A stretch of 64,000 nt of DNA from a virus. Location: IMG/VR virus record IMGVR_UViG_3300025660_000003, positions 62,001-126,000 of that record; one strand, written 5' to 3'. Both the position numbers and the translations under genes were made by a program. Under the pieces are notes generated by a model that worked only from the letters and a program-made list of their open reading frames with translations, was not told the DNA's origin and did no database searches. Of the stretch, positions 49,452-51,337 are shown one piece after another (the stretch's first letter is position 1; every line of letters begins with the position of its first letter).

Positions 49452-51337
49452 GTGGGTGAAGGAGAACACAGCCGTAGGGCGCAGGTGATCCGGCTCCGAC
49501 TCGGAGATTGCATCAGGGTGCTTCGTCACCTCGATGCAGAGTCGGTTGATGCCGTGGTCACTGATCCGCCCTACGGTTGACCATACCTGGACTGGAGTTC
49601 ATGGGGAAGGACTGGGACGCCCCCTGGAAGCTCGGGGCCGGGATGATGAAGCCTGGCATCGGCGACCGGGACATCCCCTGGCCTGCCTACGGAGCCCAGA
49701 AGTTCGGGGGCTCGAACCCCACCTGTCAGACCTGCGGCGGTCGGGCGAGGGGCAGCAACAGGTGTTCCTGCGAGGAGCCTGACTGGCACGTCAGCGGGAA
49801 GCCCCTGTCTGACGACGTGAACGACTCTGCCAGCCCGGTAGTTCAGCGACAGCGGTTCCAGGCCTGGTGCGTCCTCTGGCTGGTGGAGGTCTACCGGGTG
49901 CTCAAGCCTGGTGGGGTCATCAAGGTCTTCGGAGCGACCCGGATGTTCCACCGGATGGCGGCGGCGATGGAGGAGGCGGGGTTCTTCCTCCCGCCTGAGC
50001 ACAGCCTGGAAGCCTGGATGTATGGGTGCCTGTCTGAGGACACTGAGGTATTGACCGAGGACGGGTGGGCTCCCTACCATAGAGCCACGGTTGGAACGCT
50101 GGTGATGGGGTTCGACCCTGTGACGGAGCGGTTCATCCAGCAGCCTGTGGAGGAGACCTTTGAGTACCCCTACGACCGAGAGGCTTTCCGAATCCACGGA
50201 GACGGAACTGACCAGATCGTTTCCGTCAAGCACCGCTGTCTCGTCGGGCGAGACGGTAAGTGGGAGGTCGTCGTCTCGGGCGACCTGGCGGAAACTGAGA
50301 CAATGCCCTGCCTGCAAAGCGGAGTTCATTCCGAAGGCGTCGGGTCAGAAGGCATGTGGGCGCTCCTGCTCGAACCGGCTGCGGGTCTACAAGAAGAAGC
50401 CCTTGTCCGAGCGGAAGGGCCGGATGGTGGCCTGCTCGGTCTGCGGGACCGAGAAGTGGTACGCGGAGGCGTGGCTGCGGAAGGGCATCAAGCAGCCGAC
50501 GTGTTCCAGGAGGTGCAACGGAGTGCATCGGGGGCAGGACTGGGCGAAGCACGGGCACAAGGGAGCGGAAGCCAGAACACCAGAGAGCTACCAGCGTGCC
50601 GCCCAGAAGATGACCGGCTCGAAGAACCCGGCATGGAAGGGCGGGGTGACGTACGTGTCCCACAGAGGGAACTACAAGCGGACCAAATGCGTCCGTTGTC
50701 CGCCGGAGTATCGGTCGATGGCTCGGTCGAACGGGTACGTCGCAGAGCACAGGCTCCTGGTGGCGAGGGAACTGGGCCGAATGTTGACGAGGACCGAAGT
50801 GGTTCATCATGTGAACCACGACTCTCAGGACAATCGGCTGGTGAACCTGATGCTGTTCGCCTCGAATCGGGATCACAAGCTGTTCGAGCACCACGGAGCA
50901 CCAGCCCCGATCTGGTGCGGGTCAGCGCACGAGTCGAGCGTATCCACTACACCGGCACCGTCTGGTGCGTGAGGGTGCCTACCGGGGCTTTCGTGGTCCG
51001 CCGCAAGGGCATGGCATTCGTCACTGGCAACAGCGGCTTTCCGAAGTACCTCAACACCAGCAAGGCCATCGACAAGGCGGCTCGTGGGGTGCCACAAGGA
51101 GGACCCGACGAGACCAGCCCGAACCACGGCAAGTACAAGACACAGGCCACTGAGGGTTCCCGTGGGTCGGCTGATGTGGGTCAGGGGTACGGTGCCGGTC
51201 CAGGGGCCTTCATGCGTGAGGCCGGGACTCTGGTGGACCTCCCGTTGACGACGCCCGATGCAGAAAAGTTCGACGGATGGGCCACGGCTCTGAAACCAGG
51301 GTGGGAGCCATTTCTGGTAGGAGTGAAAGCAGAATGA
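49452..51337 (+). CDS. DNA methyltransferase N-terminal half (DPPYG), intein-bearing, with apparent frameshift
   Basis: AAGGAG at 49440-49445 precedes GTG 49452. The opening frame encodes VIRLRLGDCIRVLRHLDAES and then VDAVVTDPPYG, the catalytic motif IV half of an amino-methyltransferase, and stops at TGA 49578. The next frame (-1) continues LEFMGKDWDAPWKLG, VLKPGGVIKVFGATRMFHRM, EEAGFFLPPEHSLEAWMYG and, after an intein, SGFPKYLNTSKAID to GWATALKPGWEPFLVGVKAE, exactly the order seen in intact enzymes up to the point where the 46.6 kb protein begins. Removing 14 nt (49578-49591) would fuse DPPYG directly to LEFMG. Thus the enzyme appears permuted and split. It may be a pseudogene, use recoding, or reflect a sequence error. 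Confidence 0.65.
50027..51031 (+). other. Intein (335 codons) in the methyltransferase YGSGFPK motif
   Basis: The extein reads LEAWMYG before TGC 50027 and SGFPKYLN after, which joins to the conserved YGSGFPK. The intein starts C-LSEDTEVLTEDGW (block A) and has VSVKHRCLV (block B), and ends WCVRVPTGAFVVRRKGMAFVTGN before Ser+1 (blocks F/G; the penultimate residue is Gly instead of the usual His). It is in frame with the flanks (1005 nt). The splicing blocks are in the same frame; the endonuclease in between is in another. Confidence 0.75.
50160..50972 (+). CDS. HNH homing endonuclease inside the intein, in a different frame
   Basis: Frame +1 to the splicing domains. From about 50302 it encodes CPACKAEFIP...ACGRSC, then CSVCGTEKWYAEAWLRKG and ...CSRRCNGVH, two zinc fingers, and at about 50735-50895 an HNH nuclease (NGYVAEHRLLVARELGR, TEVVHHVNHDSQDNRLVNL, FASNRDHKLFEHH). 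The first 45 codons from TTG 50160 are low-complexity and probably noncoding in this frame, though GGAGGAG lies 4 nt before it. A +1 shift near 50300 and a -1 shift near 50900 would put it in one reading frame with the intein. Either a nested gene or a dead endonuclease kept in frame by paired indels. Confidence 0.65.
   Translation: MSTPTTERLSESTETELTRSFPSSTAVSSGETVSGRSSSRATWRKLRQCPACKAEFIPKASGQKACGRSCSNRLRVYKKKPLSERKGRMVACSVCGTEKWYAEAWLRKGIKQPTCSRRCNGVHRGQDWAKHGHKGAEARTPESYQRAAQKMTGSKNPAWKGGVTYVSHRGNYKRTKCVRCPPEYRSMARSNGYVAEHRLLVARELGRMLTRTEVVHHVNHDSQDNRLVNLMLFASNRDHKLFEHHGAPAPIWCGSAHESSVSTTPAPSGA

Follow-up and report, generated by a model that had tools for sequence, protein, structure and literature searches.

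Interruption of a phage DNA methyltransferase gene

The stretch of DNA analysed here, hereafter the window, comprises 64,000 nucleotides (bases 62001-126000 of the 141,696-base virus record IMGVR_UViG_3300025660_000003) and carries an N6/N4 DNA methyltransferase gene that is interrupted by 14 nt exactly after the codons for its DPPYG motif. The first open reading frame of this gene (ORF1) ends with these codons (GAT CCG CCC TAC GGT, 49563-49577) and is closed directly by an in-frame TGA, and past the gap LEFMGKDWD resumes in a different frame that is open until 51337. In agreement with the original prediction, removal of nucleotides 49578-49591 (TGACCATACCTGGA) restored DPPYG-LEFMGKDWD, and intact homologues were uninterrupted at this point. 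Removal of nucleotides 49579-49592 instead gave an identical peptide, through TTG; only the former version begins after GGT and finishes with GGA. The joined N-terminal part was identified as an N6/N4 DNA methyltransferase by profile matches (phrog_67, 1.2e-26; PF01555, 9.6e-9) and by its DPPY motif. The parts of the locus are listed in Table 1.

Table 1. Parts of the interrupted methyltransferase locus, in window coordinates; take-off and landing codons are named for the bypass proposed below.
Feature	Position	Strand	Remark
Shine-Dalgarno sequence AAGGAG of ORF1	49440-49445	+	
ORF1, methyltransferase codons 1-42; GTG start, DPPYG end	49452-49577	+	
Take-off helix, 5' arm GCCGTAGGGCG, codons for RRA	49471-49481	+	
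Take-off helix, 3' arm CGCCCTACGGT, PPYG codons including take-off codon	49567-49577	+	
Rod-like RNA hairpin across ORF1, with its base at the take-off and stop codons	49469-49579	+	from folding
Take-off codon GGT (Gly)	49575-49577	+	
Stop codon TGA adjoining take-off codon	49578-49580	+	stop here in 10/10 genes
14-nt coding gap TGACCATACCTGGA	49578-49591	+	
Landing codon GGA (Gly)	49589-49591	+	Gly codon here in 10/10 genes
ORF2, remainder of methyltransferase N-half; resumes at CTG (Leu), contains intein, ends WEPFLVGVKAE	49592-51337	+	
Methyltransferase C-terminal half, encoded separately upstream; ARKPL...DEQSG module in two tandem copies	46637-48655	+	PF01555, 7e-17

Recurrence of the gap in related genes

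The comparison with relatives proposed in the original prediction showed that the break recurs in nine of them, with differing gap sequences and with lengths of 8, 10, 12, 14 or 15 nt (Table 2). Among the 80 loci of the first homologue search, uninterrupted loci read DPPYGLEFMGKDWD (DPPYGLEFMGK), the exception being L010, on a 435,804-base contig, in which DPPYG-TAG and a 14-nt gap precede LEFMGKDWD. Two pattern scans that demanded neither a stop nor a Gly landing codon recovered true gapped homologues at L084, L085/L010, L100, L103, L105, L109 and L164/L227, every one of which had both; thus, for seven of the nine relatives, the rule of stop first and Gly last was not imposed by the search. 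The remaining two, L111 (of which L115 is a duplicate) and L116, came from a scan that did demand a stop and GG, and L164 was obtained from a further search.

Table 2. The ten distinct phage genes with a gap after DPPYG.
Gene	Gap length (nt)	Take-off codon	Gap	Resume codon
Window	14	GGT	TGACCATACCTGGA	CTG
L010	14	GGT	TAGCATACCACGGA	CTT
L109	12	GGA	TAGTACCACGGC	CTT
L084	8	GGA	TAAATGGC	CTT
L100	8	GGC	TGATTGGC	CTT
L103	8	GGC	TGAATGGC	CTT
L105	8	GGC	TGACTGGC	CTT
L111	10	GGT	TGAACATGGT	CTA
L116	15	GGT	TAGTCACTCTAAGGT	ATT
L164	15	GGC	TGACGTGAAACAGGA	ATT

In all ten genes, DPPYG was followed by an immediate stop (TGA, TAG or TAA), a gap that ended in a Gly codon and then [LI]xFM. Take-off and landing codons were both GG- throughout, with the third base also equal in five genes (GGC/GGC in three, GGT/GGT in two). 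Although the gaps are unalike, codons for G-[LI]-x-F ahead of the next ATG were kept in the downstream frame in every case. Gap lengths (8/8/8/8/10/12/14/14/15/15 nt) left remainders of 0, 1 or 2 on division by three, and approximately 120 intact homologues had zero residues between DPPYG and [LIV]x[FYVL]; therefore, only skipping of the gap gives the consensus protein.

These findings bear on frameshifting or stop readthrough, either of which would add 3-5 residues after DPPYG. Although the -1 frame of the window is open across the gap (LTIPG-LEF), gaps of 10, 12 and 15 nt would need the ribosome to enter another frame or to read through one or two stops (TAG and TAA are both in frame in L116), no slippery heptamer of the form X_XXY_YYZ is present at TAC_GGT_TGA, and none of the homologues found had extra residues after DPPYG. 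Since the gaps take all three remainders and L116 has two stops, no single frameshift or readthrough event serves all ten genes, and we consider this explanation highly improbable.

The original prediction had also named a small insertion or a sequence error as simpler alternatives. The latter is excluded by the independent assemblies, and a recent random insertion is very unlikely given conservation across deep divergence. More generally, the view that the gene is broken, i.e., that the gap is the scar of an insertion into a gene in decay, or an assembly error, could draw on the adjoining homing-endonuclease-like gene, on the metagenomic source and on the absence of a further internal stretch from L100. 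It has very little probability in the face of ten independent contigs in which both flanks are open and conserved and in which there is one break per gene, at a single codon boundary, together with a covarying RNA helix.

A third possibility, which we regard as unlikely, is that the enzyme is simply split: termination would release the ORF1 peptide, and translation of a second protein would begin at the FMGK ATG (49601) or at the TTG at 49577 that overlaps the stop. An ATG within codons for FMG or FMN does occur soon past the gap in all ten genes, overlaps with the stop are present in the window (TTGA) and in L111 (ATG), and genes of this family are already split at other places. Re-initiation, however, needs neither the landing Gly codon nor the [LI]xF codons before the ATG, both of which are in frame in all ten genes despite deep divergence. 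Moreover, a split here would cut the catalytic DPPY loop and would leave unexplained both the position of the stop right after DPPYG and the end of the helix (see below) at the same place.

The exact gap sequence of the window was absent from the other viral contigs searched, and a pattern scan of GTDB genomes returned chance matches only. The break was likewise not found in the GenBank phage collection, where the best homologues of the window and L103 genes were 41.6-44% identical and unbroken.

RNA structure upstream of the gap

In all ten genes, a helix of 9-13 bp joins the take-off region (i.e., the PPYG codons) to upstream mRNA. In the four genes with 8-nt gaps this is a local hairpin, CGTAGGGAG...CTCCCTACG, which includes one base of the take-off codon; its four sequences show three doubly compensated pairs, a number also reached by 25 of 500 shuffles, and z values against synonymous shuffles ranged from -2.7 to -3.6. 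In the other six genes the pairing partner of the take-off region lies 104-125 nt upstream, close to the start of ORF1, as for GCCGTAGGGCG and CGCCCTACGGT in the window. The window could not be told from intact genes by local hairpin energy alone but was set apart by the long-range partner.

The helix was initially recognized on visual inspection of the window and of the 8-nt class, after which an automatic scan scored L111, L116 and L164. Scored by one rule, helices of the ten gapped genes reached 26.5-37, as opposed to 15.5 on average and 25.8 at the 99th percentile for 124 intact genes, and duplex energies also differed between gapped and intact genes (Mann-Whitney p 1e-7), although the ten genes mostly share ancestry and pooled p-values of this kind overstate their independence. 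Synonymous shuffles within each gene are unaffected by this, and synonymous recoding of ORF1 matched the observed helix in no more than 1.8% of trials for each of the ten genes (p<=0.018). On the aligned arms, nine doubly compensated cells were counted against 2.5 expected, a result reached by none of 500 shuffles and by none of the slid registers; examples are CGTATGGC/GCCATACG in L164 and CATACGGCGG/CCGCCGTATG in L111. An RNA model search of the same genomes gave at most one site per genome.

In the window and the four relatives with gaps of 12-15 nt, the mRNA ahead of the stop folds into one rod of approximately 110 nt that closes at the take-off codon. Thus, the window fold (49465-49585) had a minimum free energy of -67.5 kcal/mol and a z value of -7.16, and z values for this class ranged from -5.7 to -8.4, compared with a mean of -0.33 and a minimum of -3.49 for intact genes. 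The sense strand was more stable than the antisense strand by 4.6-16 kcal/mol in all six genes with gaps of at least 10 nt (9.4 kcal/mol in the window), which favours a role for the RNA. The hairpins of the 8-nt class, three of four without G-U pairs and with the antisense strand favoured by approximately 2 kcal/mol, were uninformative on this point. A DNA structure of the attC hairpin type was considered and rejected, as stability of the sense strand through G-U pairs points to mRNA instead.

With starts supported by Shine-Dalgarno sequences, the length of ORF1 was 42-46 codons in each of the six genes whose gaps reach at least 10 nt and 31-34 codons in three of the 8-nt genes; only 2 of 61 intact genes had 42-46 codons to the same point. 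It is from the additional N-terminal codons that the 5' arm of the helix is formed. In four genes RRAxQ..LRLR lies at the position of the nascent-peptide stimulator of T4 gene 60 (KKYK, approximately 25-30 residues from the ribosomal P site). L164 has RMA in place of RRA together with a compensating base change, which RNA pairing fits better than a peptide signal.

A strong base-paired rod whose end coincides precisely with the 5' edge of the gap might also suit removal of the gap from the RNA, as a minute intron or by rod-guided cleavage and ligation. This is quite improbable: no Rfam intron or ribozyme was found at the gap up to an E value of 1 (two weak matches elsewhere were far below gathering scores), 8-15 nt is far below the size of known self-splicing introns, the folds showed no bulge-helix-bulge geometry, and a model of RNA removal gives no reason to expect that the stop is immediate or that the gap ends in a Gly codon.

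Proposed mechanism

The site is best read as a programmed translational bypass of the T4 gene 60 type, from Gly codon to Gly codon in a phage DNA methyltransferase gene, to which, on the comparative sequence evidence, we would give a probability of roughly 0.78. The hop-like GGT/GGA signature noted in the original prediction is thereby strongly supported, nine more genes having stop-first, Gly-last gaps and a covarying helix that ends in the putative take-off codon. The ribosome would read ORF1 to DPPYG and pause with the stop codon in its A site, whereupon the peptidyl-tRNA-Gly would release GGT, the mRNA would slide and the tRNA would re-pair at the Gly codon GGA 14 nt downstream, so that translation would restart at CTG and DPPYGLEFMGKDWD would be made. 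The 5' arm (RRA codons), already outside the ribosome, may capture the freed 3' arm (PPYG codons); zipping of the helix would draw mRNA backward out of the exit channel, which amounts to forward movement of the ribosome, and would hide the take-off codon and prevent return. By sequence arithmetic, the spacing between take-off and landing codons is approximately 5 nt for an 8-nt hop and 9-12 nt for a 12-15-nt hop. The gap, its stop and landing Gly codon, the conserved flanks, the covarying helix and the stability of the rod on the sense strand are read directly from the sequences, while the hop itself, its efficiency, the action of the helix as a motor and a functional enzyme as the product of skipping are inferred.

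Several observations weigh against a bypass. The third base is unmatched between GGT and GGA in the window, as in half of the genes, and no obvious Shine-Dalgarno-like sequence lies ahead of the landing codon. Among intact genes, L145, from the same clade, retains a similar helix and L174 scores inside the range of the gapped genes. The rod z value of L111 was ordinary in the 115-nt stretch tested, which leaves out its 5' arm. Finally, all of the evidence is computational and comes from metagenomic contigs.

With somewhat less assurance, though rather better than even, the ten genes can be viewed as a natural class of bypass in which ORF1 is itself a rod of RNA and, by closing again behind the ribosome and engulfing the take-off codon, drives a short forward hop. 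Two architectures would be distinguished, i.e., a local hairpin with 8-nt gaps and a long-range helix or ORF1-long rod with 10-15-nt gaps, the class having been long kept in large phages, perhaps with a separate gain in the L111 lineage.

Ancestry of the gapped genes

A tree of 106 sequences included nine usable gapped genes, eight of which fell into one clade (99% support), intermixed with 15 intact genes, while L111 lay outside. Grouping of the eight was not rejected (approximately unbiased test, p-AU 0.68). Given this clade and the non-rejection of a single origin, the gap was probably retained while the genes diverged deeply. Similar DnaB-like helicase genes lie upstream in the window, L084 and L116, which makes descent within a phage lineage likely. 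L145 carries three neighbouring intact methyltransferase paralogues (2986, 3699 and 4738), some of which belong to the clade of gapped genes; one has a hairpin, GTAGGGAGGA/TCCTCCCTAC, without a gap and is possibly a relic of a lost hop.

Other features of the loci

The window methyltransferase contains an intein (AWMYG/C...N/SGFPK, 50027-51031), within which an HNH endonuclease (PF13392, 4.6e-7) is encoded in the +1 frame (50160-50972); the intein frame is open throughout, which was so for only 0.3% of the sequences in which the HNH part was recoded synonymously. A homing-endonuclease-like ORF on the minus strand (48659-49513; phrog_3339, 6e-10; phrog_559, 1.4e-9) starts inside the ORF1 rod. 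In L010, several ARKPL...DEQSG modules are present as separate ORFs, and in L116 an endonuclease-like ORF with zinc-ribbon motifs (8391-9374) immediately follows the gapped gene. The gapped gene of L100 is without approximately 120 residues between MGKKWD and GWGTALKP (2661-2770, minus-strand coordinates of the reversed locus) and is either a deletion derivative or an assembly collapse. In L109, approximately 66 bp around the ORF1 start, codons of the 5' arm included, are duplicated (1923-1988 and 2860-2923, 92% identical), the copies flanking a segment of approximately 900 bp.

Relation to known bypassing systems

To our knowledge, T4 gene 60 is the sole well-studied bacterial or phage case of efficient bypassing. 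Its sequence record shows an ORF1 of 46 codons, GGA, TAG, a 50-nt gap that ends in GGA and resumption at TTA. In published descriptions, a stop comes right after the Gly codon used for take-off, Leu comes after the landing Gly codon, and the mRNA is believed to be pulled by a 5' stem-loop that pairs outside the exit channel (PMC5009743, PMC11194080). As in T4 gene 60, two ORFs of the window jointly encode one conserved protein across a non-coding gap, with a short ORF1 (42 codons in the window), Gly take-off, adjacent stop, Gly landing and Leu at resumption, a 5' RNA structure ahead of take-off and a homing endonuclease gene close by (PMC11194080, PMC5009743). In contrast with T4 gene 60, the gene is unrelated, the gap is 14 nt (8-15 nt in the family) rather than 50 nt and too short for a take-off stem-loop, the take-off codon pairs upstream instead, the third codon base is unmatched in the window, and the upstream helix of 9-13 bp or ORF1-long rod has no equal in T4, which scores 16 by the same test.

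The byp elements of Magnusiomyces capitatus mitochondria, found at 81 sites in many genes and seemingly independent of mRNA context, are likewise short non-coding inserts in coding genes that are skipped by ribosomes, and imperfect codon matches occur among them (PMC5009743); the phage sites differ from them in numbering at most one per genome and in their strong conserved RNA structure. Stop-hops between matched codons have also been obtained with synthetic constructs in E. coli (PMC5009743). The 8-nt class (GGC TGA NN GGC) comes close to these, whereas the phage sites are natural, conserved and provided with a dedicated RNA helix.

A full-text literature search on bypassing and phage methyltransferases, with subscription papers and preprints mostly outside its scope, returned no report of such sites. 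Counterparts of T4 gene 60, perhaps with shorter gaps, have long been expected and have hardly been found beyond yeast mitochondria (PMC5009743). Standard gene finding would truncate the methyltransferases described here. The ten natural sites, with their compensatory base changes, constitute a comparative data set on the requirements for bypassing, and with them the proposed mRNA-pulling motor becomes directly testable.
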